Below, piece by piece: positions 25,431 to 59,047 of a DNA stretch of 64,000 bases (its first letter is position 1; the number at the start of each line of letters is the position of its first letter). Below the pieces are notes generated by a model that searched no databases, was not told where the DNA came from, and saw only the letters and a list, made by a program, of their open reading frames with translations. The stretch is from Isoetes taiwanensis (taxonomy: Eukaryota; Streptophyta; Lycopodiopsida; Isoetales; Isoetaceae): contig JAJEKV010000124.1 in NCBI GenBank assembly GCA_021234155.1, positions 1,054,001-1,118,000 on the forward strand. Reading direction: 5' to 3'. A program made the position numbers and the translations under genes.

Positions 25431-25435
25431 AACCT

Positions 25436-30055: not shown

Positions 30056-30061
30056 AACGGC

Positions 30062-35744: not shown

Positions 35745-36395
35745 TTATACTAAGCACTTCAGGAATTTTGTTATGAAGTACCTCAAGAGGCCGAAAGCGG
35801 ACATGGAAGATGGTATTGGTGACCGATTCAAAGAATCAAAGTTGGTAGTGGTTTCCCCATCCACCGGAGGATCTTGCCACGAGAATGGACAGCCACTACC
35901 ATAATCTTCAGCCTTATTAAGGTCCGGAAGTAGTGGATCCAAGACAAATAAAGGAAGACGGCCCTTGCAAGACGAAACCTCTCTAACCTTGGTTCCAAAG
36001 ACTTTCAATGCCGTTGTGTCTCGCTTTCCCCGGCCGACAGCCAGATTAAGCTCCTCGATTTTTGTCTGCTCAAGTTCTGGTAATAGTTCCTTCAGCTCAG
36101 CCTCTGTATCTTGGCATATAGCCCGAATACCGTCTGCACGACTTGGTTTATCCTTAATCATTCCTTCCCATTTTTTTAAATCTTTATTCATCTTCTGGCC
36201 CGGAACTCAAGTTCTTTGAACCTTCATTTGTAGCACCTGAAGGCTTTGATCACAAGTTTGCAACCTTGCCTTACACTGAATCACTTCTGATCTTGTAGAG
36301 TTGATCCCTTCTCCCAGTGTCCTGTTGAATTCAACTGGAAAGTAATCCAAGGTTAGTACCACATGACACAACAGGCACCACTTTACACACCACAA
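35745..36395 (-). pseudogene. Coiled-coil segment, frameshifted
   Basis: The minus strand carries two coiled-coil-like frames. 36320-36207 has STRSEVIQCKARLQTCDQSL and then QVLQMKVQ. 36191-35745 has MNKDLKKWEGMIKDK, EAELKELLPELEQTKIEELN, then a segment ending in SSMSAFGLLR at a donor-like site. The two halves would join as one helix if a single-base shift near 36195-36215 is allowed, so the gene is probably broken here. No enzymatic domain. Likely an oligomerisation part of the minus-strand transposon gene. Confidence 0.4.
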
Positions 36396-36990
36396 ACTCC
36401 ATCATGACAAACTTTGCACCACAAATGGCGTCATATTCACCACATGTGGTGTGGCATGTGGCACCAAACTGGTGCCACATGCCACACCACATATGGCACC
36501 ACAATGCACCCAAGGCACCACATATGGCAATCCATTACTTCGCACCACAAATGGCGTCAAAGACACCACATGTGGTGCAAAATGTGGATCCATAGTGGTG
36601 CCACATTAGACACCACATGTGGCACCACAATGCACAGAAGGCACCACATCCGGCAGGCATCCACCACCCCATATGTGGCAGATAGCATGGTGCAATATTT
36701 AGCGCAAAGCGCTTGGCACCACATATGGCGCATAATCCACCATTCACAAGTATCACCATATCTAACATCACATATGACACTAAGTATAGAAACATATGGA
36801 AGCCAATTCACTATTCAGATAAGGTACCACGTTTGGTACTATATGTGACACTACATATGCTACAAACTACATTATTAACATATAATTGGCACCATATGAC
36901 TGTCCTGTAACACATTTGGAGCTACATACTGTGAACTGAAATTATCCACCACAACTCGAAACTAGAAGCACAAATTTCCTACACATAACT
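36360..36990. repeat. CACCACATGTGGTG palindrome array
   Basis: Dense CACCACA-type units in both orientations over 600 bp, including the perfect palindrome CACCACATGTGGTG near 36438 and long inverted pairs such as GTGGCACCA/TGGTGCCAC near 36460-36480. The motif family matches the arrays at 22377 and 31846. Frames on both strands across it are artefacts. The array sits inside the minus-strand gene group, so it is intronic or marks the junction of two elements. Confidence 0.8.
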
Positions 36991-37084
36991 TACAACACAC
37001 CCAAATGAAGAAGTAAGTGGTGTACCTGATTGTTCAAGCTTGCTAGACCTTGCTGGAACATAACAGTTCCAATATTAAATTGCA

Positions 37085-37682
37085 TCATATGGTGGTTCCA
37101 GAAGAAGAGGGTTGAAAAGTACCTATTTTTTTAGTGATTTTCCCCGAGATTCTTCTTACAGCTTGAGGAGGCTTGAATTGTGGCCTAGTCATTTCAAGAG
37201 AGGAAGCATCATCTGTGGCATGTTGCTCTGCTTCCTCACTATTTGAAATGCTTGCATGCTTCCTCTTACGTTGGGACGGATAGGCTTGAATTTTTTCTCT
37301 TAAATGTTGCCGAAAACTCAACCGGGTTTATTTCTTTTCCTTTTGTGTGAAGGTAATACGCAACAGCCATAGTCTGTGAGGCCATGCCTCCCCAGGCACA
37401 CTTCCTGCCTGTGATTTTTTTGTAAAGGCACATATATTCATTATACATCTCCTTGCTCATATTCTTCAACCTGCATGATGAAACAAAATAATATTCTAAA
37501 CAACAGAGAATCATGGGCATCCCCGAATCTAGAATGCAACCCACCGTAAGTGGGATTTTCCTAATACTTTCGGTCCCCAAACGGACTTCGATTTCTTCTT
37601 GTGTGGCGTAATGCTTTTCTTGCCGTACATTTCCTTGTAGGTGTATCCCGTGGCATTCAAGTCCCAGATGATCGTCAGCCAT
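37085..37682 (-). CDS. Unknown N-terminal exons of a minus-strand gene
   Basis: An exon from ATG 37682 reads MADDHLGLECHGIHLQGNV, then TQEEIEVRLGTESIRKIPLT, up to a GT donor near 37544. A second exon after a CATGCAG acceptor (about 37470) reads KNMSKEMYNEYMCLYKKITG, then CAWGGMASQTMAVAYYLHTK, to about 37330. A third (37321-37085) has a basic stretch QRKRKHASISN. Splice sites and protein-like composition support a real gene, but I recognise no family. It is the likely 5' end of the gene group that continues to the HAD and Ulp1 exons. Confidence 0.45.
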
Positions 37683-37709
37683 TTAAGTGATCGATCTTCT
37701 TGCCGTAAA

Positions 37710-37834
37710 ATCAGAAATGGTCTTGCCGGGATTAAGGGAGCGTGATCAGAGTTTTTGAGGGAAAATGAAAATTCAGAATCAGAAATGGTCTTGCCGGATT
37801 AAGGGAGCGTGATCAGAGTTTTTGAGGGAAAATG
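37710..37834. repeat. 69-bp direct duplication upstream of 37682 start
   Basis: Two copies of a segment running from ATCAGAAATGGTCTTGCCGG to TTTTTGAGGGAAAATGA, period 69, just 5' of the minus-strand gene start. Possibly duplicated promoter DNA. Confidence 0.75.
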
Positions 37835-38340
37835 ATCGAGTACATTGCTGAATAAGCCTGAATAAGACTGAAAGGACAAAATTTTGAATAAGTAATCATG
37901 TGTATTTTTGAAAAAATAACTGCCTCTCCCACTACAAATTCGGTAGTTCCCACCACACTTAGCACCCAAAAATGTGGTGCTAAAATGCACGTTTTTGTTC
38001 CACTACAACATGCTTTCACCCATGCAGGCATGAATAAACTTATCTCTTATTAGGGCCTTGGGACTAGAACATGTATGCACTGAAGTTCTCCAGGCAATGC
38101 TTCCATGGGTAATTACAACAATTCGTTTAGAGGAAGAACAAACCACAAAAATGGGAACATGGCGCTAGGCTACACGCCATACTATGTTCCATAAATGGCT
38201 GAGTGCTTTGTGGAAAGATACACTAGCTGCATCAATTAATGATGTGGGGGTGAAATCTGAAGCCATGGCACTTGATTAAATTGTAACTTGAAATATTTCC
38301 AGAATATAATCTGTGCATAATTTAGTTCAACATTTCATGC

Positions 38341-42403: not shown

Positions 42404-43116
42404 CCTTGACGAAATTTTGATCAGCTTCAGATTTAGCCCGTTCGTGAGCAGATCTTCATATCTATAGCAGTTTCTAGCCTTTAATTTTGTTTCTTGAGTT
42501 TCATCACTGATTTTCCCTTTCGATTCAGGCCTTGTCTATGGAGCCAGATGCATAAAACAAGCCTGGCTATGGCCTCCGGTGTCTGCCTGTTCTTATGAAT
42601 GGTGGCTTGCCATGTGCTGGCCCTCCGGAAAAATAAACATAAAAGCATCGATTCGACCTTGTCCAACGGGTTCTGGCAGATGCAATTTTTAGGGCCTCTG
42701 GGAGGGAGGCATCAAAAAACCCCGACACTACATCGACAGAAATTTCATTGCTTAAAACCTCATGCAGTTAATCAAGGTGATCAAAATTTCGTCTATTAGA
42801 TTTGTGATGCAAGCCTTAAAATCTACAAATTGATGACCCATCTTTTGGCATAGCCTATTAGATTTGTGTGATTCTTCACATATGACAAATCAAATGCATG
42901 CAGAATCTAAGACTATAGATTTATGTGCTTCACATACGAAAAATTATAATACATGCAGAATCTAGGGGGAATTTTTTTTTTAGGTTTTTTGAAACATGTT
43001 TTTTGAGTTTTTATGGAATATTCTTAATATTTCAAGAATCGACAGGATACAATGTTTGCCTGCAAAAGGGACAGCACCTTGCACCGTAGACTTAAACAAC
43101 CTAATCATAAAACAAC

Positions 43117-43254
43117 GTTGGTATCTAGATAATAACAACATTTAATAATATAAACAAGAAGAATTGGAGAATTACACCTAGAGTTGTTGGTATCTAGATA
43201 ATAACAACATTTAATAATATAAACAAGAAGAATTGGAGAATTACACCTAGAAAG
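43117..43254. repeat. 69-bp perfect tandem duplication
   Basis: Two head-to-tail copies beginning GTTGGTATCTAGATAATAAC, period 69. The copies appear identical, so the event is recent. Confidence 0.9.
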
Positions 43255-43650
43255 TAGACAGATCGATTACAGTATTAGAAAATCCGAATAGCATAGTAAT
43301 TTATGTCACTGTAATAATTGCAGAGACTACACAGAGATATTTTATGTCAGATAATAATATTTTATGTCACTGTATAAATGACAGAGATATTTTATATTTT
43401 CAGATCAAGTATCTTCTTGTGCCTCGTCATCGATGTAAAGACATCATTTGCGTTTCTTTACTTTTTGCTCAATACTTGACATTGAGGACAACACTGTGGC
43501 ATGTTGTTTAGTTAGTTTTGGTTTAGATAGTTAATGTAAGCAAAAAATAGAAATATTAGCTCACTAACTAATCAGCTGGTTCTTCAATCACGATTGTGAT
43601 TATCTCATCCTCTTCCTTCAAATCCAGCTGCATAGAAGGAGCCCCTTCTG

Positions 43651-44553
43651 CTAATGGTTTTTTAATGTAGACATTCGAAGTGTTCTGACCACATCACAAA
43701 TATCAGCATCAAAATCCATTGCATAGCAATGCAGACCTCGGAGTGCGCAGACCTCAACCATAGACCCTGTACCTGTCAATAAATCCACGACATAATCACC
43801 ACAATCACATAGCAGTTGGAGTAAGAACTCGTTAAAGCGGGTGCTCTTCTTTAAATTATGCCGCAGTGAATGATGTTTTGTTGATCTCATTCTGTCACCT
43901 GGCCCTAAGTAATGCCTCAAAAGTTCACTGCTATAATCCAACTCATGTTGATTAAATACCTCCTTGGATTTAAATATCGGATTTGTGCCAGCTCTTTTGT
44001 AGAGAGATACTATCATCACATTTCTTGATAGAATACCGTATTTATCTTTATGAAAACTAAATGGTCTGTCCCCAATCAATTTGTATGATCTTCCTAGTTC
44101 AAGGTTCTTTTTTCTGGCTGCCTTTTGAAACTCAAAACTGCTAATGCACACTAACCATCCACTGTCATCCAAACAGAGTTCACCTAAACTGAAACATCCA
44201 TCTACTAGTTGTATGTCAAGTTTGTTCCAGTATGGTGTTTCGTTTGAGTCACTTCTTGTAGGCTCGTTTGTTGGCAGATCAACAAGAACCAAGTTAGCAC
44301 CCCAATCTCTGACTTTTCCATTCCTGTAGTACATGGATGATTTCTTGACTTCCTTTCCTAAATTTCTCAACGATGTGAACACTTCATGGCCGCCTAATGT
44401 TACAGCCCTAGAGACCACACATATATCTGCTTGGACAACTTGAAATTCAATATGGCATTCTTTTTGAACTTGTACAACATCAGACATATGCTTTCGTGGA
44501 GGTGTTTGATAATCGACAATAAGATCCTCTTCCTCATTTTCCTCATTAAACCA
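43651..44553 (-). CDS. Amino-methyltransferase-like (N6/N4 DNA MTase type)
   Basis: Open minus-strand frame to 44553 with an acidic lead-in (EENEEEDLIVDY). From the internal Met at 44487 it is 278 residues. VRDWGANLVLVDLPTNEP (residues 59-76) stands where amino-methyltransferases have the catalytic DPPY/NPPY motif. SLGELCLDDSGWLVCISS follows. Near the C-terminus, DYVVDLLTGTGSMVEVCALR then GLHCYAMDFDADICDVV (231-265) is the SAM-binding motif I with the acidic end of strand 2. Catalytic motif first and SAM motif last is the beta-type order of bacterial DNA adenine/N4-cytosine methylases. DLPT in place of DPPY casts doubt on activity. The frame is long and unbroken. A 5' exon is likely upstream. 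Unrelated SAM enzymes (such as RNA MTases) remain possible. Confidence 0.6.
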   Translation of the reverse strand, partial: WFNEENEEEDLIVDYQTPPRKHMSDVVQVQKECHIEFQVVQADICVVSRAVTLGGHEVFTSLRNLGKEVKKSSMYYRNGKVRDWGANLVLVDLPTNEPTRSDSNETPYWNKLDIQLVDGCFSLGELCLDDSGWLVCISSFEFQKAARKKNLELGRSYKLIGDRPFSFHKDKYGILSRNVMIVSLYKRAGTNPIFKSKEVFNQHELDYSSELLRHYLGPGDRMRSTKHHSLRHNLKKSTRFNEFLLQLLCDCGDYVVDLLTGTGSMVEVCALRGLHCYAMDFDADICDVVRTLRMSTLKNH

Positions 44554-44886
44554 TCATCCAATTAAATTGGGATTATGTCAACTCCAAAATCACGCCAACC
44601 TGCTATTGTCTTCTAGGGGGTTTTTGTTTTTTTTAATCTTTTTTTTTTGGACTTCAAAAATAACATAAGGTTGCGATTCACGTGTGACTTTTCATATGCG
44701 AATTGAAATATGCAGAAATGAAGAGCAAGTTGCTAACATAGATGAGACCAAAATTGCTTGCTCGATAGATGATAATATTAGGTTTGATAATAACAGATTG
44801 CATTATTTGCGAGGCAATTCCAGACTCGAAATTATCGATACATGGCACAAATATCATACAAAAATATCATATATTCCAATAAAACA

Positions 44887-45506
44887 TTAAGGGATCAATC
44901 CATGTTTTTCCACGTGTTTAACAAGGTGTGGTTCCATGTCAGCCGTTCTATCCAGTTCTGGGTACGAATCTAACACTTCACCCACCGTCATCCCCATAGC
45001 CAAATTATGCATAATAGACACAAACTTCACCGAAAAATCATCATGTCGAAAAGTTTTTGGATCGTAAGATGGTGGATTCGGGGGCCTATGTTTGATTGTA
45101 GAAGCATTTGAGAGCATCATCATCCACTATGATTATATCATCCTTATTCTCGATACCAAGTTCGGTCCATCATGTTACTCAAGTGTTTGATGAAGATAGG
45201 CTTGCCCGTTGGATCCTTGGGATTAGTGAACTTCACACATTTGTTCTCGTCCCAAAGGGTCAACCAATGTCTACGATTTCCCCGGTGCCTCCAAAGTATC
45301 CTTGATGTTCCTTAGTTCCATGGATGACCAAATACCAACTCGAAATAACCTGAATGCCTCGTCTAGCATCTCCTTCAAGTGCGGCCGCGGATAGATCCAC
45401 TTGGTGTTTGATTCTACTGGTGTCTGATGAAACTGTTCTCTAGCCACTTTATTTTTCGGAAAAGTCTTGCAAAGGACTCGCTTAGGTCGAACACCACAAC
45501 CTTCTT
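44887..45506 (-). pseudogene. Second FCP1/NIF-like HAD domain, decayed
   Basis: Across shifted minus-strand frames: KKVVVFDLS (motif I, Asp present, 45506 downward), VLCKTFPKNKVAREQF, WIYPRPHLKEMLDEAF then RLFRVGIWSS (motif II), LWDENKCVKFTNPKDPTGKP then IFIKHLSNM (Lys motif), DDIIIVDDDALKCF (motif IV) and a tail ending in HVEKHGLIP. It clearly belongs to the same family as the domain at 33683-34324. At least three frameshifts (after DLS, near 45290 and near 45130) disable it. It lies directly downstream of the ParB/methyltransferase gene on the same strand. Confidence 0.65.
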
Positions 45507-45905
45507 AGAAACGCAATGGAAGTTTGAAACATCAAACATGTATCCGGCAGACAAGATACGATAACACAAACAATACAAACGCCAGCCAAGCGTGATTTGA
45601 AATAGTCATAACCAAATCGCTTCGGCTGATTTAGTTTGACAACGAAAAATAATCAAAAGCACGCTTGGCGCGATTTAATTCAAAGGTAATACAAATTAAA
45701 TCACGCTGCGTGGCTTATTTCGTAAGGGCAAGGCCATACCTATCATCTTCGGTTTGTTGCCATCATCGGCGCCATTCTCCCCTTCGCCACCCTTAATCTT
45801 CGCTCTTCTTCCCCGACCGTTAGAATTGTTATTTTCTATTAGTTCCGGCCAAGGCCCTTCACAACCGACATTATTTTACTATTGATTTGGCAAACCTGTG
45901 AATCA

Positions 45906-46818
45906 CTAGAGCCGCCTTCGTTGCCTGGTTTCCCTGTCAATTAGTTCATTGTTAACCTGTGAATCTACTCTATTGTTGCTTGCATCACCCGCAATGTGGG
46001 CAAGGATATTCCCTAAGTTCGCCGCCATCACAGTACTTTGAGCAACCAGTTTAGCAGCTATTTGTTCATTATTGCTTTCCTTATCGTGCCGCAGATTACT
46101 AGTTCCCTCTCCAGAGCAACGTCCACTTTCGAATTGGACAAGTCTACTTAGACTTTTGATTGTCGATGATTTCAGGTTGCCATAAGGGCCTTTAGGAGAC
46201 TTGGCAAGCACATGCATGAGGAATGGTTCAAGAAAGTCTTTGGCCTGCTCATCACTCAAAAAGCAGTGACATCTTCTTGCACCCATAAGAGCCTCTCGGG
46301 CAATATAACCTCCAACATGAAGCTCCAAGCAGGTTGTATCAATTGGAGCAAATGCCTCAACGAGGTAAGCAGCCATAGACGGGGGAAATCCATTTTTATT
46401 TAAGGGGCTCTTCTCCTTAGTTTGTAGCTCGTACTTGATTTCCCCACTTAGGAGGGGGTCCCGATCCTCATCCTCTTCTCTGACTCATCCCCGTTTCGAC
46501 CGATCCCCGATCCGTATGAAAGAATATAGTTCTTAAGTCCGGATCATCTAGAAGAAAAACATTCCCATGCACCGCTATTGTCACCCTTGGCCTTAGCAAT
46601 ATCATATTCCTCGGCCCGGCAAAGATGGATATCATAATAAAGATCACATGTGCCATCTTCCGTTCTGTTCGCAGCTCATTATCCTTAACATCATATATTA
46701 GGCATCCCTCCCTAATAACTTTGAGGCACTCCAGATCATGAGCAGCAGATAGTGCATGCAGATGTGACTCACCTGAAGGACAAACGATGACAATAGTGAA
46801 GGACTTCTCGGTTGTCAA
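45906..46818 (-). pseudogene. Methyltransferase-like region following ParB domain
   Basis: 46818-46468 reads EKSFTIVIVCPSGESHLHAL and LKVIREGCLIYDVKDNELRT. In the shifted frame it continues DLYYDIHLCRAEEYDIAKAK where a catalytic DPPY-like loop would fall. 46376-45906 reads MAAYLVEAFAPIDTTCLELH then VGGYIAREALMGARRCHCFL and SDEQAKDFLEPFL, the pattern of a C-terminal SAM-binding motif I and strand 2. The tail (NNEQIAAKLVAQSTVMAANL) is helical. The same catalytic-then-SAM order as the 43651-44553 protein suggests a related but divergent methylase. Frameshifts near 46450 and 46640 indicate decay. The assignment rests on motif layout, so confidence is moderate. Confidence 0.45.
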
Positions 46819-47139
46819 TCCTATACACCGGTAAAGAAGCTACCGTAGTCCTTCGGTTCATGCCCATATCTCCTCTCCCACCCCGCCGTCCAACACAAAG
46901 AGTGATATATTTTTAAGGCCGGTTGAATCGGCAAGAGACCTTTGTACCCAATGGAGACTCAATCTTTGGATGGTGTCGTCTTCTCCAAAGAATCTTCTTC
47001 ACAAGGGCCACTTTTCTTCTCAACTCAGCCAAGACCTTAGGGGTAGAGTCTCCTTATGTTTTGTATTTTTAGCCTTCCAATTCTTTAGGAAGTCCTTTGA
47101 CCGTAATACAAACTTCTTGATGTCATCATTACTCGACCT

Positions 47140-47402
47140 TGTATTTGGGCAAAAGTATGTTTGGTGGGTATCAAAAGCATGCGTCCCCGACGCATCTTGG
47201 ACAAAGACTCATATAGCACCCCATATGGCAGCTTGTTTAGGGTGTTACCGGTACTAGCACATGGTAATTAGGTAATCAATAGAAATATGTAATTGACTCC
47301 AATGAATGACAAGTGGAATACTATGATAGAATAGTACATCCGTGGTGCTGATCTAAGTGTCTTGGGCTTTTTTTGATACCCACCAAAGATACTTTTGCCC
47401 AT
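47140..47402. repeat. 32-bp inverted repeat marking a local rearrangement
   Basis: GGGCAAAAGTATGTTTGGTG plus GGTATCAAAA (about 47147-47176) recurs inverted at about 47370-47401 with one mismatch. Coding-like minus-strand sequence lies on both sides in incompatible frames, so a piece of the gene was probably duplicated in inverse. Confidence 0.6.
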
Positions 47403-48157
47403 TTGTCCAAAGAATCCAATTTGAGATAATGCCACATCCCCCGATAGCCTTTGTAACTCAGCTCCTACAAACTTCTTCATTGTATCGCGTTACATCCTTT
47501 ACATGGTCTGCAAAGACTCAACGAAGGACATCCTATCCTTGGTGAAAGCACCCTTCTTGTATAAGACTTCCTTCTTTAAGCACCGGTCTAAAACCCAAAT
47601 GGTCTCAACACGCCTAGCCCCCGAAGTCTTTCTCATCTCTCGTCACATTCAAGTCAAAGATGCTTACATCAACAGGAGGCACCCTACCCATAGTATCCGG
47701 CAGCTTCCCTTGTGCATAAGCCGTCCCGCATTCATTCCACTTGAGCCATAATGCCTCCTTACAAAACACAATCTTATACGAAGTCATTTGGTCCCGACTG
47801 TTTGGATGAGCTTTCAGAAGGATCTGCAATGTCATCACCACCTTTTTTCTTTGATTTTCTTGCAGTCTTCTTCTTCTCCTGTATAATTGTCTGCGACAGA
47901 GTCCGCTCCAGCAGCTTGAATGCCTCAGACTTTGACCCGCCCTGTCTGGTGGGCAATGGGCAGCCATATTCCACCCATCGTTGATCGGGCGGCCCTGCAG
48001 CTTGCTCAACGTATGGACTGCAATAGTACGTACATTGAATCGATTATCATAGAATAGAAACACGCCGGGCGCGATTTGAATAGAATTGATGAAGAGAAAA
48101 ATCACGCCTGGCGTGAAATGAATAAAGTTACTAATGCAATTCCGCCAGCCGTGCAGG

Positions 48158-48313
48158 CTTTCAAATCAAACCAATTCACGCCAGGCGTGTTTTCAAATCA
48201 ATCGAATTCACGCCAGGCGTGTTTTCAAATCAATTGGTTGACTTGAAAACACGCCTGGCGTGAATTCGATTGATTTGAAAACACGCCTGGCGTGAATTGG
48301 TTTGATTTGAAAG
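48158..48313. repeat. Perfect 71-bp inverted repeat in a ParB-gene intron
   Basis: Arms 48158-48228 and 48243-48313 are exact reverse complements around a 14-nt loop. Each arm holds two CACGCCAGGCGTG palindromes, so the whole is a palindrome of palindromes. A further copy lies on each side (48105 and 48314). It could extrude as a cruciform or form a long RNA hairpin if transcribed. Confidence 0.95.
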
Positions 48314-49539
48314 CACGCCTGGCGTGAATACAATTTATGAAACCAGGTTGATTACCTTTTGTATAGAAATGTCTTCCCCATTTCATTCAAAGTTGCACTA
48401 ATCTCAGCCAAATCTGCAGGTGAAGTATTGGCATCCAAGATACGACACCTCCTATACGCATAGTGATTGTAGAACACTTTTTGGCCTGTTTGTTTGTTAC
48501 TTTTGATGATGGCCTTTTGTGCCTCAACGGAATGCTGCCCGCCGATGATGACATATTTAATATCATCACTTGATAATAGCTCCTCGGACGTTATTCACAC
48601 CTGCAGCTTGTTCGAGATCATATCCCAAGGTAGCACATCCACCGCATAGGCATTTGACCGGATTACTAATCATGCTCTGAACAATCTCCATGGCATGTGC
48701 TGGATCATATCTTCTGCTAACATAAATGGAGCTTGGTGAACGGATGAGGGACTTCACATGGATCGCAAAAGTTTCCTTAAGACCCAATGGATAATGGTCA
48801 GAGTATTTATTCAGCTTGTTCATGGCCTCTAGCTGCGCCACTCTGTCCTGTTCATTCTAAAAACAAAGCCTCCATGCCTTCGACAAACCGCAGTTGAACA
48901 TCCTTCCCTAGATCTAGGACCCTCTTAGAAGCTTTCAAGTCAGCTAATTCCCTAGCTTGTCGCAAATAGTGACTTGGTGTCGGTTTAGTGAACATGCCTC
49001 TACGCATTTTGTAACCCCTTGGCAAATAGATATTGGCGAATCGCTACATTGGTTGGCCAACCATACTTAAAATATGTCTCACCGCTCACATCTGTCTTCA
49101 TGAACGTATCCTTGTATGCGAGAGCTCTACACGCGAGTAAGTCCGAGTAGATCTTTCTTATGCTTCCTTGTAATCTCCAAGAGCAATTTGCGTTGGTGTC
49201 ATCCTCTTCCTCACAAGAGATTAGGATCCCTTGTTTGGCCATCTTGTCTGCTTCCTTTTTCCTCGAGAAGAGAGTTAAGTCGAGCTTGCCATTTGTCTTG
49301 GCAAGGTCAACGTACCACTCGGCACCCTCGTCCATTTCCTCTTCAGGGCAGGCAGGGTCAGTGGTTGCTATAAGAATCGGCCCTTCATCATCTAAGGTGA
49401 GATCATATGGTACTGCATCTGGGTCGTCTGCCCTTGCTTTCTTGGCAGGATTAGAACCCGAATTATTAGGGGTTTTCTTCCTCTTGAGCACTGCAAAAGA
49501 AGATGAGCACTTTTTAGAGTACTTTTCAGAACAAGAGAT

Positions 49540-49590
49540 CACGCTTGGCGTGCATTTAAACCTAAATTAGTACAAATCACGCTTGGCGTG
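49540..49590. repeat. Pair of CACGCTTGGCGTG near-palindromes
   Basis: Two identical 13-mers at 49540-49552 and 49578-49590 lie in intron 1 of the ParB gene, 38 bp apart. Same family as 48158 and 51589-51946. Confidence 0.85.
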
Positions 49591-50079
49591 TTGGTAGCTC
49601 CTATTATTGACCATGCTATGCGTGAATTTGAAACTAAATTATTTTGCATCCACATTTTAAGCTACATACCCTTCATGAATCCATATTTCACACTATTTAA
49701 CCTCATTGAACATTGCTATCTCCGACTATCTAACACCGCTATATTCTATATATAAAACAGAGCAAAATTATGTTCTACAGAACGGACAATCAGAGCATTA
49801 ACTGATGGTAATACTTAAAATTCATGCAAAGCATAATAACTCAAACTCATGCAAAGCATATTAACTGAAGGCAAGGAAATATCTCAAATTCATGCAAGCA
49901 TAATACTCTCCACACAGTGTGTATTCTGTGGCAAATTAAATACCTTGAATAGGGTTCTGTGTATTCTGTGTATTCTGATCAACGTCCTCTGAAACTTGAG
50001 AAGAGCCGGGTTTAGAGATTCCTCTTCCACCGCTTCCTCTTCCCCGTCCGCCTCGACCTCGATTCGCTTTAGAAGACAT

Positions 50080-50430
50080 CGCTGGAGTCGCCTAGTAACA
50101 GAGTCGGAAGGTCGCTTCGGATCTGGCCTTCGAGCTGCTTTCGAAGAAATAGCTTTTTCTACCTGTACGAGAAATAGAGAAATTTGAATTTCAAGAAAAC
50201 ACAAAATGCAGTTTCGAAATATTCTTGACACATACAAATAATAATGACGAAGACCCGTCCGCCGACTTCTTTCATTAAGTTTTTAAAAACCAATCTACCC
50301 AAAAAGTATCCCGCCAAATTTATCCCGCCTAAACGTAGTTAACCTAATCTTTCTTCTAATTCGAATTTTCCCCGACCGCCGAGTTTTCCATAGCGCCTTC
50401 AGCTTCTCAAATCAGCTTCAGAGACTCAAA
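50080..50430. promoter_or_regulatory. Divergent promoter region
   Basis: About 350 bp separate the minus-strand ParB-gene start (50079) from plus-strand coding-like sequence beginning near an ATG at 50444 (MATEFWYSSHS). The spacer has TATCCCGCC-type repeats but no clear TATA box. The arrangement suggests a shared bidirectional promoter. Confidence 0.35.
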
Positions 50431-50541
50431 TCAGCTTCTCAAGAATGGCTACAGAATTCTGGTACTCATCTCATTCCAATAGCTTGAACATTAATTTCCA
50501 ATAGTAGGTGTCTGAATAGCAATTTTCTGCGATTAATCGAA

Positions 50542-50776
50542 GATGAATGTTTCATGTTAACTACAAATCGAGAAAAGGAAAGTAGGATTATGCAAGATCG
50601 ACTCCATCGATCCGACCAGAACCGCCATGGAATTCGCGGGGATAAGTATGTCCGAGTTACAGTGATTAACTGCTGCGCTATGGATGAAGCTTTACCTCGC
50701 AGACACCCCGGTGGGGATACGGTTGGAGAAAGTGTTGGAACATTTGTTGCATGGCCAAGAAACCGCTTAAAAAAGG
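50542..50776 (+). CDS. Transposon-associated exon (GTFVAWP motif)
   Basis: Plus-strand exon reading MLTTNREKESRIMQDRLHRS, DKYVRVTVINCCAMDEALPR and then VGESVGTFVAWPRNRLKK up to a GTATGT donor. The phrase (V)G..(L/V)G(S/T)FVAWP followed by basic residues is typical of the domain found after the transposase in plant CACTA-like elements and Ulp1-bearing transposon proteins. Only this exon is recognisable. Continuation downstream is not evident. Its role in the element is unknown. Confidence 0.45.
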
Positions 50777-51249
50777 TATGTAACATGTATTACATTGTAG
50801 AAATATAGAAGTAGACAAAATTTGTTGTATTCATTGGAAAAAGATTACAATTGTATATAATCTGGATAAACTGGATAAACCAGACAAAATCCCAGACTAC
50901 TGTTTCAAGCCCGGTCTCTTTGTAGGCGGGCTATCGATATCTCCCATTTCCATTGCGGGGCATAGTGAATTCTTCCGTAAAACCCCAAAGAAAACACCGT
51001 GCTCTAGCTCCACCATCCCCGGCCGCTTTGCTCCACCTCCACCTCCACCTCCCCGCCCCCCGCCTCTGTTGAACCTCCAATGCATCGTATATAAGCGCTG
51101 CGGTAGTGGTTCCATTGGTTGAGCCATCTCCATTGCATCGTTATACCGCCTTGTGGTAGTGGTTCGTGTTGGGGCATCCGGGCATAGAGGCTAACCACTA
51201 AGAAACGCAGCCTCCTCATTTTGAATCTCGAAATGACGGATCACGAGAT

Positions 51250-51555
51250 TCACTCTCGATCAATGCATGTCTTGCATTCTCGGTGATTAGATAAGAGGGC
51301 CAGCCTCCTCAGGCGATTGGTAAGGGCCCCGCAGCCCGGATCTATCATTGCCCTGCGCTCTGCTGCCATCATCATTACTTGATCCAAGTACTCTAGGGGT
51401 TGCAAGACTGGTGCTCCAGCCGGATTGGTGCTCGGCTGCGGTTCAACCGGAGTGGAGATTGGAGCCGAAACTGGAGTTGGGCTGTGTGATTGCTGGCCCA
51501 AATGTAATTCCAATGCATCTTCGTCACCAATCGGGTGATTAATGTAACTTGGCAT
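51250..51555 (-). CDS. Unknown Pro-rich protein, 101 aa
   Basis: MPSYINHPIGDEDALELHLG, then a Pro/Thr-rich linker (TPVSAPISTPVEPQPST) and a helical end (MMMAAERRAMIDPGCGALTN). It lies between two clusters of CACGCC..GGCGTG palindromes on the same strand as the ParB gene. It may be a downstream exon of the gene whose promoter is at 52533. No family recognised. Confidence 0.35.
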   Translation of the reverse strand: MPSYINHPIGDEDALELHLGQQSHSPTPVSAPISTPVEPQPSTNPAGAPVLQPLEYLDQVMMMAAERRAMIDPGCGALTNRLRRLALLSNHRECKTCIDRE

Positions 51556-51588
51556 CTATCAATAGGAAGTGAGCGGAGTATCAGTATT

Positions 51589-51946
51589 CACGCCTGGCGT
51601 GTTATATTTATTTATTTATAAACTTAGAAACTAAGAGACACGCCCGGCGTGTTTAGCGTAAAAGTTGAAAGTAGGGATACAATTGTTTGCACGCTCAGCG
51701 TGTAAATTGCTATATAGGAAAAACTATACACGCTCGGCGTGCATTCAGCAGAGAGGGAGAAAAAAAAAACCTGTACAGATAGATAAGTAAATAGATAAAG
51801 GCCAGGCAAGCGTGTAAATAATTGCCTGGCCTTTATCTATTTACTTATCTATCTGTACAGTTTTTTTTTTCTCCCTCTCTGCTGAGTGCACGCCGAGCGT
51901 GTATTCATGTTGAAGGCTAAGGTTACCATAAAACACGCTTAGCGTG
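51589..51946. repeat. Six-copy CACGC(C/T)NGGCGTG palindrome cluster
   Basis: CACGCCTGGCGTG at 51589, CACGCCCGGCGTG at 51639, CACGCTCAGCGTG at 51690, CACGCTCGGCGTG at 51729, CACGCCGAGCGTG at 51889 and CACGCTTAGCGTG at 51934. Variation is mainly in the centre. The outer CACGC/GCGTG is invariant, as expected of protein-binding or methylation sites under constraint. Confidence 0.9.
51729..51901. repeat. ~80-bp inverted repeat
   Basis: Arms 51729-51809 and 51822-51901 are near-perfect complements, including CAGATAGATAAGTAAATAGA and a run of ten A/T, around a 12-nt centre. Each outer end is one of the palindromes above. Confidence 0.9.
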
Positions 51947-52279
51947 TTTCAAATATTATCTTTCAGATTTTTCTAATGCTTTCTACTACACTTATTCATA
52001 ATAGAAACTTGCATGCAATAGCATGATTAATTCAGGAAGAGAAACTCAAGAATTTACTCGAAACAAAAAGAAGCAGATGAAGTTTATAAAAAACTATTCT
52101 GGTTTTCATAAACATCATCTGCTTCCTCTGCCTCGAGCAAATGCAAAAGCTTGTCTTCTTGGATTAAACCTGCCATTGAGATGCAACTTAAAACTAAATG
52201 AAAACTAACCTTGAGTTCGAAATTTGGAAGGATTCAAGAACGGAGGACTATGCTTGTGGTTTTAATTCGGTGGCTTTTC

Positions 52280-52545
52280 GATTCGCACCTTAGTCCTCTG
52301 CTTTTTGGTTTTAATTCGAGTCTCGATTTCCTCCCTTTCTACGGATGCTTTCTGAGAACAAAAGGCGGAGTCTTTTAGTAAGTTAGGAATTGCCGAAACC
52401 AAACATCTAACATTGATGAATATAAATCTGCTCACCAAGATTTCGGACGGGCGGATCCAAACACAACAGAAGCGCAACCGGCAAATCGTATGAAGGAAGG
52501 AAGAAAATGTAGGAACTTTGAGAGCGTAAAATGGATTTATATAGG
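52280..52545 (-). promoter_or_regulatory. TATA promoter and first exons of a minus-strand gene
   Basis: The minus strand reads CCTATATAAATCC (52545-52533), a TATA box. Downstream are a short exon ending CCGAAATCTTG at a GTGAGC donor (about 52436) and, after TTGTTCTCAG, an exon encoding KASVEREEIETRIKTKKQRT. No ATG is seen in the first exon (ACG stands at a possible start). The promoter and its upstream AATTAGAAA..GCGTGAATAATT..AACACGCC..GCGC block match those at 53728-53790. Confidence 0.45.
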
Positions 52546-53300
52546 CACAATTAGAAAAAAAGTTAAGCGTGAATAATTGATTGCTTGAATTAACACGCCG
52601 GCGCGCACGGTCTTCCCGCCGAGACATGACATGTATATGGTATATATGAAGAATATTGCATTTCATGCAATAAATTCTCCATTTTTTTATTCCATTTATT
52701 GCATTCAAAAAATAGAATTTAGAAATTTTATATAGGCTAAATTAAAAATGATTTTAAAGGCAAAATTATGAAGGCTAAAAAATGACTTGTAAGGTTGGGG
52801 AATTGTTTTAGGGTCGATAGGAAAATTTCCTATGGTTCTTGTGATGAATCGAGATTTCTCATGTGGTTGATTTATAGTGTTCGAGACTTTGTTGAGACAA
52901 AATTTGCAGATACAAAATTTTAGAGATAACAACTTGGAGACAAAATAATTGGAGAAAAAAAGGTTGGATTTAATTCAAATAATTTTATGTACGTAAAAAC
53001 TGCTCAAGAACACTTTTTTGAAGAAAAATTTTATGACGAAAACTGTTTGATTTCATTCATAAGAGGAGAATGTACAGATGCCCGAAGGCTTTTCACAAAA
53101 TTACAGGAAAAAAATGCCCGGAGGCGTGTCCAAAGCTTCTGTAAGCAACCAAAAAAAAAAGGGGCCGCCCGGGATCTGCATCATTGATCTTCCACGTCTG
53201 CAACAAAGAAGGAAGAAAGGTGTTAGAAAAGAAAGAAAGGTGAAAAAAAAAAAAGGAGACATGCAAACCTGGCTCATCTCTCACCATTCTAAAAAACTGG

Positions 53301-53674
53301 TCAATTCTCGACCTTCCTCCTCATCCTCTTCCTCCCCTCCTCCTCCTCTTCCTCCTCCTCCTCTTGAGGAGATTTCATTCTCTCGTTTGAGGTCAAGCCA
53401 ACCACGGCGGCAGCGGTTTCATGCTCTTGGGAGGACATCTCCTCCTCTTCCTCCAACTCCTCCTCTTCCTCCTCTTCAGAATCAGAGGAATCAGAGGAGC
53501 TCAACTCCTCCTCTTCCATGTCAAAATCAGCATCATCCTCTGAATCGGAATCAGAGGAGAATTGGGCAAGAAAATCTATGAGGGGGGGAAGAGAGGGGGT
53601 TCTTCAACCCGACGTCTCTTTGACGAGACCTCGGGTTCTTCATGAAGTTCGAGCGCTGAGGCTGAACGCTTCAT
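53301..53674 (-). pseudogene. Acidic Ser/Glu-rich protein, one-base frameshift
   Basis: ATG at 53674 gives MKRSASALELHEEPEVSSKR and then RRR, a basic NLS-like start. After a seven-G run (53582-53588), where one base must be gained or lost, the frame continues LIDFLAQFSSDSDSEDDADF, then 53519-53301 MEEEELSSSDSSDSEEEEEE, a long acidic tract, and a basic RKRMRRK end. It has the same design as the protein at 31153-31551. The TATA box (53728-53737) lies about 55 bp upstream of the ATG. Role unknown. Confidence 0.5.
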
Positions 53675-53727
53675 GGCGGGCAGAAAAAAAAAAAATTGGG
53701 ACGTAATGGTCTTGAGGCGTGAACCGG

Positions 53728-53790
53728 ATTTATATAGGGTTAATTAGAAATTAGCGTGAATAATTTATTGCCTCAAATAACACGCCAGCG
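53728..53790 (-). promoter_or_regulatory. TATA box and conserved upstream block
   Basis: The minus strand reads CCCTATATAAATCC, followed upstream by AATTAGAAA, GCGTGAATAATT and AACACGCCAGCGC. The same series stands at 52533-52606. The CACGCC half-palindrome in both suggests that the palindrome family includes promoter operator sites. Confidence 0.6.
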
Positions 53791-54149
53791 CATTTGAAAT
53801 TCCACCACCTATATTATCTAGGGTATATTATTATGGATAATAAATTCTCACGTCTATTAGTTATATGTCTTTTTTCAGAATCATATATCCAAATTTTCGA
53901 TAATTAAAATTTGGATATATTTATATAAATGTCATTTCCTTGTTGTTGCCATGAAAATTCTTGTTTTAAATGATTTCGTTTACGCCCATTGTTATTATTA
54001 TATTAAACCTATTTCCAAGGAATTTCTTGCTTTTAAAAAAATTTGATTTACCTCTACATATTCCATAAATGTAATGTGCTTTTTTTTATCTTATGGTGTA
54101 ATAATTTTTTCTTACTCATTGACTAAAAAGGGTGCAATTTGCCTAGGTC

Positions 54150-57036
54150 AATGGTGCCTCTCCAACTCAAGATGGTGAAAAGAGCAATATCAATGAAAAA
54201 CCAACTCCTAACAAGAATGTTGAAGAAAAACAATTAGTCCTCTATAGTAGGGTGCAATGGAGGAACAAGAAGGTGAGAATCATGCACAAGTGCAACAAGG
54301 AAATAGTAGGCCAAGGAGTCATTGTGCTAGCGTGATCCCGGTCAAGTCAAGTAAATGATGAAAGGCTAGGGAAGACAATATTGGTATTGCAATTTCGATG
54401 TTGGAAGACAACTGGAAAGGTAAAGGTTTGGGTGACAAGGAATGTTTTGGTTGTGTCAAGCAATTGGAGGTTCCTTGCATCATGGCATGGCCTATAAGTA
54501 GTGTTCAATTTGTGGAGGATTATATTTTTCCAGAGCCTGAGGTTGTTGGGGATAATGATTGTCTTGATATTGATCCATTGGCAGTTGGAACTCTAAACCT
54601 AGGCAAAAGGGGAGAAGTATCGGTTGCCGACATTATCCTAGCAAAAGAGCCAAGTTGATTAGTGACACCAAACGTGAGACAATGGTGAAGGTTAGGGGCT
54701 CGATTGTTTGTTGGAGTGATTGTATGCAATTCTTCACAATAGAACAATTGGTGGAAGCAAGAGCCACTTTTCAAGAGTACACTGTTGATGAGAGGAGGAC
54801 CTACATGTACACAATCTTCGAGCATGCACTTCAAGATGAAAGAAACCCAAACAGAAAAAGATACCCTTTGCTAGGCAAATGGATATGTGCAAAAGCATGG
54901 CAGAGTATCCATGCAATTCCAACTTCTTCATGGCATAATTGGCAAAAAAAAAAGGCAGAGGGGAACAGGATTGCTTTACATGGAAATAATGGTTTGTTGA
55001 GACCAACAGCTAGGACCCTGGCTGCCAGGGAGATATTTGAAAAATATATTGATTTCAATGCAGAGTCTATGCCACACAAAAGCAGAAGGGATGAAAAGGG
55101 AAGAGCAGTTGTTGAGAAAAGGTTGCCATCACATTGTACTCAAAAGAGTATTTTGGAAGAAGTGAATTCCCTACTTCGAGAATTGGGAACTCTTCCAATA
55201 TCCCAACCTAGCTTTAGTAGGTTATGGAAGAAGCATTTCAATCATGTCACCATAGCAACAAACAACTTTGCAAAGTGCAATTTATGTGCTAAGTTGAAGG
55301 AGACTCTTGATAAGACTGTGCAACCTAGTCAAAGGGCTAGGATAAGGGGAGCATATGAAGGACCATATGACTGACCAACTATCATGTAGATCATGTTATT
55401 GGATGTGGAGGACTTTATCTGCATTGGAACCCAATAACTATTTATGTATTATACATGACAAGATGGACCAGCAAAAGACTTGTCTTCCACAATTCAAGTA
55501 CATACCAAAGTCATGTGGAAGATCATACCCTTTACGTATCTCAATGATCAGGGCATCTTGCATGGGCGTAATCAAACCTACTATGGCCATTTTAGTTTGG
55601 AGTTGTGGAGTGATGGTCCAGATTTTCATATTGGGAGTATCATGAGGTGTTTGAGAAACTATGAAAATGGATACAATGGTCACCTCCGTGACCTTCAGAC
55701 TAGCCGGCACTACATAGAGCATTGTTAGATGGAAACCCTAACAATATTGAAAAGTTCAGCAAGGCAAGGTTTAGGAAGCATGGGTCTAATGAACATGTTG
55801 GAGCTTCAACTTCACGTGCTAAACCTCAAGATCTACCCAAAAGGTTTCTCTTGCAACTTGATAATTGTGCTTGGCCAAAATAAGAACAGTGGATGTTTTC
55901 TTTCCTATCCTACTTAACAGTTGTGGGGATATTTGAAAGAGTTAATTTAGGGTTTCTTATGCCCTGCATACCCATGAGGATGTGGATGCATTATTTGGCA
56001 AATATAGTTGTATCTTTGAAGCAGCAAACAAGGACCAACTTTCCCTAGGCTAATGGAAATCTTGCATGAATGCACTACTCCAAACCCTATAGCTTCTCTC
56101 ATAGAAGAAGTGCCCGATTGGAAGAGCTTTGTGGATGGTTATACATTGGATCTTGAAGGTCATTCCAGGGCCCTGCAGTTCACTTTTGGGTGAGAGATGG
56201 GATTCCAATCTTCCAATGGAAGATGAGACCTTCGAGGATGAGTGGAGAGGAGGGGAGGACAATATGGGCGTGTAGAGATGAGAATGACAAGCCTATGATA
56301 CCTCTAGGTCAACCAAAAGCTTTAAAACCTACTGAAGAAGTGAAGCAATTGGGATTGACTAAGGAAGGAATCCAAGACTATATAAAGCATTGGCAAACCA
56401 ATCCAAATGACACCAACCGTGCCTTGGTGGCTTACTGGAAGAAGGTGATTAACCTGTTGGGGGAGATAGACACATCCTCAGATGAATTGAAAGAAGGGTG
56501 GTTGCCTAAGACTAGGTGGAAGACCTTAGCGGTGCTGAGGATTTTGATGACACTTGTAAGTAGCATTCGCGAAGCAATACGCCCTCCTCCTCCTTGACAA
56601 ACACTATGTTGGTCCTAAGAACAATAGGCCAAAGTTTCTAGGCATGGATGCTTATGAACCTTCCACTGACTTGGAATGCCACCAATTTGTGGTAGTAAAG
56701 CCATCAGATTTAGATACATATCTAGTGTGGTTGGGGTTCACTATCTCTGATATTTGCAAAGAAGAAGGTAATATTAACTTCAACCATGTGCGGGTGGAAT
56801 GGTGGTGTCCAATTGCATCAGTTGACCAACGTGTCGGGATAAAGAAAGGTACTTTCAGTTGTTGGACAAAGAGATGGAGGAGAAAAATCCAGTGATCCTG
56901 ATCTTTGGCTAGACTATGAAAGTGTTTTGTACTCATGGACTCCAAACACTATTCCAGCTAGAAATGCGAGAATTACAATACCTCAAGATGTCAGGAAGAA
57001 GGCTATGATATCATTGGGGGTGCTTGAAGAAAGTTG
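54150..57036 (+). pseudogene. Transposase with HTHEDVDA signature, frameshifted
   Basis: Plus-strand blocks in order are: 54398-54658 (Cys-containing N-terminus); 54655-55374 (GKWICAKAWQSIHAIPTSSW, HGNNGLLRPTARTLAAREIF, SFSRLWKKHFNHVTIATNNF, AKCNLCAKLKETL); 55355-55540 (DKMDQQKTCLPQFKYIPKSC, first acidic motif); 55540-55725 (GRNQTYYGHFSLELWSDGPD); about 55833-55900 (FLLQLDNCAWPK, second acidic motif); about 55960-56040 (ALHTHEDVDALFGKYSCIFE); then 56190-56597 and 56644-57036. This order matches a large transposase-like family of animals, algae and plants with an RNase-H-like core (the 'DUF7869'-type proteins, as I recall). At least five frame changes and a stop after WPK make it inactive. It converges on the ParB-like gene at 57130-59047. 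Confidence 0.65.
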
Positions 57037-57129
57037 AATAACTATGTAAATTTTTGTTATCACGTTTTTATGATATGGTGCTATATTGTGAAATATTGAC
57101 TATTTTGTAAATAACATGATATTACGTTT

Positions 57130-59047
57130 TCATAATTTTGAGGTGAAATGTGTGAATTTGAATATGCTACTAAAAACATGCAATATGAAATTTGTCCCAA
57201 AATTAAGACATAAACCCAATTTAATTGAATGATGGTTATTAGTTGCATCAGATACTTTTGGCTTGTCTTTCCTGCTTCTCTTTCTTTTGTCAACATCAAC
57301 TTTTTCCTCATTTGTATCCACCTTAATTTTCTGCCCTCCACGGATCCGATTGTAATCCGACTCTTCTTCTTCTGGATAAGACCCTAAAGGGAAATCAATC
57401 CACCAGGGAGAATTTTCTCTTTCCCATTTATGCATTCCACCTCCCCTGTCTAGATTACCTTTTGGACTATAAATACAGTCAACACCTGTGTGAGACACCC
57501 ATATCTGTATCTGTGGATGTATTGATTCCATGCACTTAATATGAACCAAATATTTGAAATACCTGTATGCAACTCGTATGGCTATCCTTTGAACTTCAAA
57601 AGCTTCAGAAACATTAATTGTAGATTGCATATGTCTCTCCCAATGCTTAAACATTTCAACTCGATTTCTAGCTTTGAATGTTCTGTACCAAGTCTCCACA
57701 TCACAGTCCCGGGGTATTAACAACTGCAAATTATGTTGTTCAATTGCTCCCTTCACCAAGTCACATGATCTGGTTAGTAAATGCCCTAGCCATGTTTCTT
57801 TCTTTACCCAAGAATTGAAGCTCTTGTCATTAGTTGGTATCTTCTGATAATTACCAAACTGAGATGTGCTAGTCATTGTCTTAATCCAATTATCTCTCAC
57901 ACTATTCTGCATCTTTGATCTGACCATAAACAAAAGCTTTTCCACTGTCACATTAACTCCTTTAGTTTCTAAATCCTTGGTTGTGACATGGCATAACCAA
58001 ACATTCCCAAGACTAGATTTCACAATGGCTAGATATTTTTGCATTTTAGTTGTCCACTTTCGCCTCACTTCCCTTTCAGCATTTGCCTTCAAGACATCAA
58101 CTTCTGAAATGTTTTCATGATTTGATTTTATGTAATCCTCAATGTCCTTAACCATTGAAGTCTGCATCAATGGATTCTTAGTAATTAGTTTATTGAATCT
58201 TAAACATCAAAAGAAATATAACAGCAGAAACAACATAAACTTACGTTATATAATATCTTTGCATAGGCCAATCTTGTAAGAGGATACCAAGGCTCGTTTG
58301 ACCCTATCATTTCCCTTGTCCTCTGTGCTTTTAACTCACTGGGAGAAAATTCCTTCATATACTTATCTAGTTTGGCAGTAGCAACTCTGTGCACAATCAT
58401 TAGTGTATCTTGTAGACTTGTACGAACAACACCAATCTCGTTCAGTCTACAACAAGCAATTTCTGGAAGTGAGTAAGAATGATTTGCATATAAGAATAGA
58501 AAAGCTAAAAAACTCACAAATATATTCATTGCAGCAACCAGTGTTGTCTCGTTCGGCTCGTCGATGTTTATAAAATCAGCACGAACACAAATATGTTTGG
58601 ACTTGACATGTTTGTATGTACTGTTGATTTCAGACATCCATGCCTCAGTTCGATGGTTGCCATCCCAGCAAAGAAACATTCTACCACGCAAATCTGACCA
58701 GTCCTTGTTATGTACCAATGACTCTTCAAATGCCTTATTCACTTCTTGCCAATACAGGTCCTAACCATCAATGTCCTCATCAGTCACTGGAATAACATCA
58801 CCTTTTGCTATAGCCATAGATAAAATGAAGTTCCCCTTGGATTTCACATAGCCATCCTGTCTGAAGGTATCTCTTAGTATTTGTGCTCTTGAACCCACTT
58901 TGCGGACCTCCTCATTTATCCTAATCCGACATAATGGAATCATGGGTGGTTGTGTATCCTTCTTTAATGCTAGTGCATTTAAGGTTTCTGAAATCACTTC
59001 CACAGTAAGCCTCCTACCAATGTTATCCTCAAGAATGAATCAATGCT
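57130..59047 (-). CDS. ParB-like protein with GNHR motif, one in-frame stop
   Basis: The minus-strand frame starts by 59047 (ILEDNIGRRLTVEVISETLN) and runs in one frame to about 58250 except for a TAG after DEDIDG (58761-58763). It contains MIPLCRIRINEEVRKVGSRA, QILRDTFRQDGYVKSKGNFI and FLCWDGNHRTEAWM (58673-58632). The last is the ParB/Srx-fold nucleotide-binding GNHR motif. VAAMNIF follows. After a GTAAGT donor (58242) and ATGCAG acceptor (about 58170), a 340-codon exon continues TSMVKDIEDYIKSNHENISE to an acidic/basic tail (KRKRSRKDKPK). In bacteria ParB-fold proteins bind DNA and hydrolyse CTP, and are often fused to methylases. Here the gene is tail-to-tail with a transposase. Only one stop in about 600 codons suggests recent loss or a sequencing error. 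Confidence 0.6.

Follow-up and report, generated by a model that had tools for sequence, protein, structure and literature searches.

Introduction

Transposon accessory genes that join a ParB-like domain to a DNA methyltransferase (MTase, or methylase) have been described in algae. Sola1-1_Ec32 of the brown alga Ectocarpus carries one, green and red algal reports are cited with it, and the authors suggest that such proteins bind and modify their own transposon (PMC12477816, in the excerpt used here). DndB-like proteins and DUF6551 fusions are also assigned to the ParB-CTPase fold, and a change of the Box II arginine abolished nucleotide binding (PMC12704722, likewise in excerpt). Here we analyze a 64,000-nucleotide stretch of the lycophyte Isoetes taiwanensis (contig JAJEKV010000124.1, positions 1,054,001 to 1,118,000; hereafter the window, whose coordinates we use throughout) around the interval 45906-50079. 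A sequence-only reading had described this interval as a plant mobile gene that leads from a ParB-like into a methylase-like domain, a pairing it placed outside the usual transposons; the reports from brown, green and red algae narrow that last claim (PMC12477816, as excerpted). The interval lies in a transposon with terminal inverted repeats (TIRs), which we call element A. Its accessory gene encodes ParB/DndB-like, methylase-like and NIF-like parts, and its introns hold short dyads whose two arms differ together between subfamilies. On balance we lean towards an explanation in which this protein would recognize its own element through the dyads.

Element A and its accessory gene

The main features of element A in the window are listed below.

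44549-57237, no strand: element A, complete TIR transposon of 12,689 bp, from its TIRs, target duplication and empty site
54577-56895, plus strand: transposase-like gene in pieces 54577-55374, 56160-56597 and 56563-56895, named from its place
51250-51555, minus strand: small open reading frame (ORF) upstream of the ParB-like gene
49944-50079, minus strand: exon 1 of the accessory gene, RGG-rich N-terminus from ATG 50079, in-phase donor
49943-49491, minus strand: intron 1, GT-AG, phase kept
48356-49490, minus strand: exon 2 with a stretch resembling a nuclear localization signal (NLS), the N-terminal region and the ParB/DndB-like domain (about 48356-48740)
48355-48018, minus strand: intron 2, GT-AG, phase kept
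45906-48017, minus strand: exon 3 region, middle part and degenerate methylase-like domain
44887-45505, minus strand: exon 4 region, NIF-like (FCP/SCP) HAD domain and DUF433-like tail

We searched the assembly of the same genome (1,658,258,908 bases in 1,110 contigs) with the read-through of the ParB-like part and obtained at least 151 matches, 150 of them scored from 4,263 first-look candidates. The first 12 share 83-89% identity with the window copy and follow the same exon path, and 10 of these 12 have no stop; the best match (89%) is open where the window copy breaks. From the matches we fetched 18 copies of 10 kb, picked for long open frames and spread, 14 of them close to the window copy and 4 diverged.

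The limits of element A are given by its copies. The TIR AACCATCATYCAATTAAATTGGGWTTATGTC is present at both ends, and in the window copy an ATTA target duplication flanks the element (44545-44548 and 57238-57241). The match to the window ends at 44549 in 8 copies and at most 16 bases from it in 3 more (L181, L186 and L190). These 11 copies, 8 of the 14 close and 3 of the 4 diverged ones, show the 3' end ..GATGATGGTT in identical or near-identical form, and the ..CCCAATTTAATTGRATGATGGTT end recurs in inverse order at 57237; in the remaining 7 fetched copies the match stops earlier or the stretch is cut. Two paralogues, L199 and L200, provide the empty site: sequences matching window positions 57238 and 44548 adjoin there and share 4 bases. 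We place element A at 44549-57237 because of the common copy ends, the inverse end at 57237, the adjoining empty sites and the ATTA on both sides, and these features confirm that the interval belongs to a mobile gene. Members of the Sola superfamily follow a 4-bp target duplication rule, and the window copy combines a 4-bp duplication with TIRs.

Within the explanation that we favor, element A would be a cut-and-paste DNA transposon whose two strands carry, respectively, a transposase-like gene and the accessory gene. The label transposase-like is taken from place, since a Pfam scan of the three pieces gave no meaningful match. The first of these pieces lies 2.3-11.5 kb upstream on the other strand in 22 of the 150 typed ParB places listed (window included; 0.3 expected) and, among the matches listed, downstream of a ParB place in 1 further pair within 12 kb; both lists are samples of larger families. 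Pieces of the small 51250-51555 ORF were found upstream of the ParB-like gene by protein match in 7 of the 18 copies, whose fetched stretches start near there.

The layout of the accessory gene agrees with the sequence-only reading in its RGG N-terminus (ATG 50079), an NLS-like stretch in exon 2 (LKRKKTPNNSGSNPAKKARA), the ParB-like words, the minus strand and two phase-keeping GT-AG introns. Frameshifts and stops break the gene in the window copy, with exon 2 interrupted and several frameshifts in the exon 3 region, and the gene is open in many other copies, exon 2 included. Part of the exon 3 region, at about 47146-47401, is probably a small nested insertion. This stretch is bounded by a 31-nt inverted pair (97%), matches to most other copies break there, and in L185 it is found at another place.

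The order N-terminal region, ParB-like, middle, methylase-like and NIF-like part is constant in the 18 copies as far as each reaches, and the 4 diverged copies share it at 50-54% identity in the ParB-like part. Four copies (L184, L187, L188 and L192) have no NIF matches, L184 also lacks methylase-like pieces, and L196 and L198 have the last methylase-like piece only. The L192 stretch holds two copies of element A, tandem or nested, the first cut short and the other ended by the limit of the stretch. In L193 and L195 the middle and methylase-like parts form a single open frame of 677 and 714 amino acids (aa), respectively. Given this constant order and these single frames, the sequences indicate that the N-terminal, ParB-like, middle and methylase-like parts belong to one gene. 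The NIF-like exon appears to belong to it as well, on the basis of order and spacing rather than a transcript. The sequence-only reading had placed ParB-superfamily-like and methylase-like parts in one gene and had called for a search for intact paralogues; many open copies in the same genome keep both parts in one gene and in the same order, not in separate genes.

Constraint on the protein was estimated from the ratio of nonsynonymous to synonymous substitution rates (dN/dS). For the ParB-like exon (16 of 17 domains, L192 excluded; pairs with saturated dS give no ratio) it is 0.05-0.13 in all 6 diverged-subfamily pairs. The methylase-like part gives 0.31 for L197-L195, 0.25-0.37 for L193 against three copies and 0.51-1.01 among three close copies, and the NIF-like part 0.26-0.56 in four pairs. 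The three C_MT pairs involving L199 were excluded as out of frame.

Dyads in the introns of the accessory gene

Element A holds 14 instances of the dyad CACGC-N3-GCGTG, and the rest of the window has none. A scan of the window on both strands with at most 2 mismatches gave 28 matches, against 0.23 expected. The exact dyads lie in three places.

48061-48326, no strand: intron 2 array of six dyads and one near-match, partly within an inverted repeat with 86-nt arms
49540-49590, no strand: two dyads in intron 1, with at least one at this place in 13 of 14 close copies
51589-51946, no strand: six dyads upstream of the ParB-like gene, two inside an inverted repeat with 45-nt arms

The 14 close copies contain 122 CACGC-N3-GCGTG dyads and one of the CGCGC form, whereas the 4 diverged copies contain 26 CGCGC-N3-GCGCG dyads and none of the first form. 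The outer base pair is A..T in 122 close-subfamily sites and G..C in 26 diverged ones. We had defined the first form from the window sequence before any copies were fetched and came upon the second on inspecting the diverged introns, so the subfamily contrast, and not each count, is the finding. Among arm pairs with spacers of 0-8, the spacer is exactly 3 in 122 of 125 in the close copies and in 26 of 26 in the diverged ones. None of the 149 dyads in the 18 copies falls in about 48.6 kb of matched exon (other sequence, 73.8 kb; because tblastn set the exon limits, some short coding stretches may have been counted as non-coding), and none lies beyond a copy's last match (L192 has nothing beyond). 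In the fetched copies most dyads are intronic, inside the ParB-like gene, and not at the 3' end of the element. At -4 to -2 their flanks are rich in A, reaching 1.1 bits in the close copies and 2.0 bits in the diverged ones; since both strands were folded together in the count, these bases may belong to a longer symmetric site. The sites are not all independent, as many form intron arrays and the copies share ancestry.

The co-divergence of dyad and protein is observed directly, as are the element's ends and empty site, its gene order and its parts. The strongest hint is that both arms changed together between subfamilies, which suggests a symmetric binder. As part of the explanation favored here, the dyads would be candidate sites of the ParB-like protein.

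Two near-perfect inverted repeats in non-coding sequence, 48148-48323 (86-nt arms) and 51726-51904 (45-nt arms), could form transcript hairpins.

Relationships of the protein parts

The sequence-only reading had proposed a ParB domain and a methylase domain and had named PF02195 and PF01555 as the families to look for; neither was found for the element A gene in Pfam scans of the copies. The window copy alone gave no ParB support in Pfam, PHROGs, NCBIfam, PDB or phage profiles with shuffles. Support of modest strength emerged from 17 ParB-like domains taken from the copies, with members counted at E <= 10. PF14072 (DndB) matched 13 of the 17 (best E 4.5e-4; 0.11 for one member shown), scoring 12 bits against a curated cut-off of 29.1 bits in the one member with a score shown. 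The PHROGs family phrog_1033, 'ParB-like partition protein', matched 11 of 17 (best E 0.0039), PF20188 (DUF6551) matched 1 of 17 (E 0.13), and PF02195 was not among the Pfam matches. HHalign did not discriminate for the ParB-like part, since on each of two profiles 10 of 60 column shuffles aligned as well. Its pairwise score against ParB2 (the ParB-like domain of element C, below) was at shuffle level, and a PF14072 profile search of the genome found nothing at E <= 0.001. Box II counts by regular expression were set up post hoc and are given little weight. Taken together, the family matches give real but modest support for ParB-superfamily homology.

The sequence-only reading had also seen a S-adenosylmethionine (SAM)-motif layout in CLELHVGGYIAREAL. 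The stretch is conserved and, in profile alignments, sits at the place expected for motifs X-I of a beta-class methylase, yet its letters are not FxGxG and it is not a methylase motif. In open copies the motif I place reads ELHVGGY or close to it, and the motif IV place reads LDSRG where DPPY is expected. Pfam found no methylase in any of the 9 methylase-like regions of other copies, PF01555 and the DPPY and FxGxG motifs included. The profile alignments are co-linear, but on two profiles 3 of 60 and 15 of 60 column shuffles did as well, and pairwise comparison with a methylase stayed at shuffle level. We rejected an active methylase within 45906-50079, given the absent motifs, the lack of a family match and the shuffles that equal the profile alignments. 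The methylase-like part of element A has probably lost catalysis.

The NIF-like part matches PF03031 above the cut-off, with E 2.4e-9 for the window read-through and E 1.9e-16 for the open L197 copy. L195 and L197 read DLNGVL in place of the usual DxDGT, with the first Asp kept and the second changed; the stretch is broken in the window copy. The tail of the exon (44890-45080) matches DUF433 (E 0.0014) and is possibly a small DNA-binding tail.

A further NIF-like gene lies at 33686-34507 (PF03031, E 2e-11) and is homologous to the NIF part of element A (score 149, shuffle maximum 66).

Element C, a ParB2-methylase gene split by element A

Element A is inserted in the coding sequence of a second element, element C, and splits its ParB2 part from its methylase.

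57238-59008, minus strand: element C part 1, ParB2 exon (58203-58760, Box II WDGNHRTEAW) and middle part
42957-44548, minus strand: element C part 2, N6/N4-type methylase domain (43654-44548) and 3' end

The methylase ORF 43654-44553 was first assumed to be part of the element A gene, and this was then rejected. It is separate because none of 18 ParB copies carries it within 7 kb downstream (less in L190 and L192) and because its own copies (2 of 2) have no element A ParB-like gene within 8 kb upstream. Alignment of the copies identified it as the other half of element C, whose uninterrupted arrangement is seen in L199: the ParB2 exon, then a 777-aa frame with the methylase.

PF01555 exceeds its curated cut-off (26.7 bits) in the diverged copies L203 (33.1), L202 (29.8) and L201 (27.2), and is below it in the window copy (E 0.002) and in the close copies L199 (E 0.008) and L166 (E 0.0012). 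At the place of the catalytic motif [DNS]PP[YFW], element C reads DLPTN in the window and in 9 of 10 other copies and ELPTN in L164, while motif I is D/ELFAGxGS in diverged copies. The name ParB2 is given because of the Box II word and the place upstream of a methylase. Box II reads WDGNHRT[ED]AW, with arginine, in 3 of 3 copies compared; ParB2 had no Pfam match (L199) and none in PDB sequences. Four phage profiles were compared with three members: on the best profile 7, 1 and 10 of 300 shuffles did as well as the respective member, and on the others 6 to 237. ParB2 also precedes the two diverged methylases that were followed upstream, L201 (with ParB2 at L205) and L203 (at L204). At 59 of 113 typed methylase places, ParB2 lies upstream on the same strand within 6 kb, mostly at about 2 kb (0.12 expected), and none of the 113 showed any other ParB2-methylase arrangement within that distance. 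Exact-word scans of viral and bacterial collections, which detect close relatives only, found no relative of the methylase ORF.

Mutator-like elements (MULEs) are marked by a 9-bp target duplication, long TIRs and a SWIM-type transposase. Element C has 9- to 10-bp target duplications (L199, L200), an imperfect TIR and, by eye, a SWIM-like CxC..CxH ORF (L199); the duplication and ORF of L199 suggest that it is MULE-like. A perfect 69-bp tandem duplication (43117-43251) lies in its 3' part.

By sequence, the window's real ParB-methylase gene is that of element C, outside 45906-50079. The idea of a transposon lineage with a ParB-methylase module holds for this genome, but the recognizable methylase belongs to element C and not to the gene of the interval. 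For that gene the sequence-only reading was incomplete, since its methylase-like part is without active-enzyme motifs and it also encodes a NIF-like HAD domain.

Proposed self-recognition and its alternatives

That the dyads are bound, what binds them and all the functions described next are our inferences. The RGG/NLS protein would be nuclear, associated with RNA or chromatin, and would recognize its own element. As a symmetric dimer or clamp, its ParB-like part would bind the dyads found within its own gene's introns and 5' region, with the protein of each subfamily paired to its own dyad, CACGC-N3-GCGTG or CGCGC-N3-GCGCG. Binding would mark element copies, and the NIF-like part would act there on RNA polymerase II or chromatin, so that the element stays expressed or paired for transposition; the methylase-like part may serve as a binding or dimer module. 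Marking of this kind has analogues in ParB, which acts from parS, and TNPA, which acts from subterminal repeats.

Several results weigh against self-recognition by the ParB-like protein. Its ParB support is modest, with a best E of 4.5e-4, counts taken at E <= 10 and 17 interrelated domains, and PF20527 (DUF6742) matches 12 of the 17 (best E 0.0037). NCBIfam and PDB sequences gave nothing relevant for the ParB-like domains, phage ParB profiles miss the domain of element A, and no helix-turn-helix family in Pfam matched the ParB-like and methylase-like parts. The Box II arginine is replaced, with QHS in 16 of 17 domains and QHF in 1 of 17, so the known nucleotide chemistry may be lost. Close copies are weakly constrained (median dN/dS of the ParB-like exon 0.52, range 0.12-2.78, 66 pairs), a pattern that fits young copies drifting and older lineages keeping the protein. 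Half-changed sites occur (19 G..T and 12 A..C in the close copies, 1 G..T in the diverged), and some dyads stand in tandem 32-bp units or long inverted arrays, which can spread by slippage. The binder could also be the transposase, the small 51250-51555 protein, or no protein at all.

CACTA elements carry short, element-specific subterminal repeats thought to be bound by TNPA. The dyads could likewise be bound by the transposase or a small helper protein, with another task for the ParB-like gene. The same element holds a transposase-like gene, dyads also occur upstream of the ParB-like gene, and near-matches extend to 53.8 kb, towards the transposase-like gene. We nevertheless consider this somewhat unlikely: in the fetched copies, which are without the 5' half, most dyads lie in ParB-like gene introns and not at the 3' end, and the transposase-like part of the window copy (54-57.2 kb) has none. 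That the dyads are intron minisatellites or RNA hairpins, aiding splicing or giving small RNA and kept by slippage and gene conversion, would account for the many dyads in 32-bp tandem units and long inverted repeats and for flanks that are partly common to sites and A-rich at -4 to -2. Yet some dyads are isolated and have otherwise unlike flanks, the spacer length is fixed (3), the two arms changed jointly between subfamilies, and the A-rich flanks may be part of a longer symmetric site; we regard this origin as unlikely.

The remaining alternatives concern the protein. Its ParB-like resemblance could be short-motif convergence in an unrelated plant transposon protein, in line with the absence of a ParB match from the window copy alone, the shuffle-level pairwise score against ParB2 and the blindness of phage ParB profiles to the domain. 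With the other copies, however, two libraries name ParB-superfamily families, and ParB2 of element C, upstream of a methylase, has a similar Box II word with arginine, which makes convergence improbable. An active DNA methylase in element A, marking the element, is the least credible proposal, and we give it very little weight. Phage ParB-methylases do align co-linearly with motifs X and I in register, a phage methylase profile gives the window motif X-I piece 2.1 bits (a score that 2 of 1000 shuffles also attain), and dN/dS is 0.25-0.37 in four pairs of diverged copies. Against this stand the LDSRG and ELHVGGY-like letters of the open copies, the missing family match, the 3 of 60 and 15 of 60 shuffles that equal the profile alignments and a read-through region left without a score by a second profile.

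Other observations in the window

The region 19000-38000, which includes the NIF-like gene at 33686-34507, is a third mobile and repeat-rich region. It has a short motif of its own, CACCAC/GTGGTG, concentrated near 19-23, 29-33 and 36-38 kb and with isolated hits outside these ranges, and a Ulp1-like ORF was seen by eye at 32826-33323 (no Pfam match). Between 9558 and 18137 the window contains a copia gag ORF (17397-18137; PF14223, E 8.4e-22), which fits a plant, together with two similar stretches that resemble long terminal repeats, at about 9.6-10.9 and 16.1-17.2 kb.

Comparison with known systems

ParB-MTase transposon accessory genes are already known in algae (PMC12477816, as excerpted). 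For land plants we found no report of ParB-methylase transposon genes in the open-licence literature, subscription papers aside. Within the literature searched, what is new is the occurrence in a vascular plant, the presence of two element types in this single genome, the loss of methylase motifs with fusion to a NIF-like domain, and the co-diverging dyads. Beyond algae, such genes are thereby placed in a vascular plant, whose genome has them in two types of element. More tentatively, and with less than even confidence, we propose parS-like self-recognition in plant DNA transposons, with subfamily-specific co-evolving intronic dyads and a ParB-methylase-type module in each of two unlike elements (one with 4-bp target duplications, one MULE-like) of one lycophyte genome. 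The dyad, in changing symmetrically along with the protein, is a concrete candidate target, one not seen in the excerpted algal report (PMC12477816), and because it supplies that target, the guess of own-transposon recognition becomes testable by a binding assay. If its DLPTN site is active, element C would be a candidate for producing N4-cytosine or N6-adenine methylation in a land plant.

Among described proteins, DndB/DGQHR proteins (PF14072) are the best Pfam family for the ParB-like part of element A, which shares DGQH in Box II; it differs in having serine for arginine and a shown score below the curated cut-off. As in phage and bacterial ParB-N6_N4 methylase fusions (PMC12704722, in excerpt), a ParB-superfamily part lies upstream of a beta-class methylase part, but the genes described here are eukaryotic, have introns and reside in TIR transposons, and element A is without the Box II arginine and the methylase motifs. 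Unlike CACTA subterminal repeats, the dyads of element A lie mostly in accessory-gene introns and have a fixed spacer. Sola1-1_Ec32, as far as the excerpt describes it, is similar in being a giant DNA transposon that encodes, opposite the transposase strand, one protein with a ParB-like and an N4/N6-MTase domain. Element A differs from it in its land plant host, in its size (12.7 against 21.5 kb), in a degenerate methylase-like part followed by a NIF-like domain, and in its co-diverging intronic dyads, whereas the string 'palindrom' is absent from the main text of PMC12477816.

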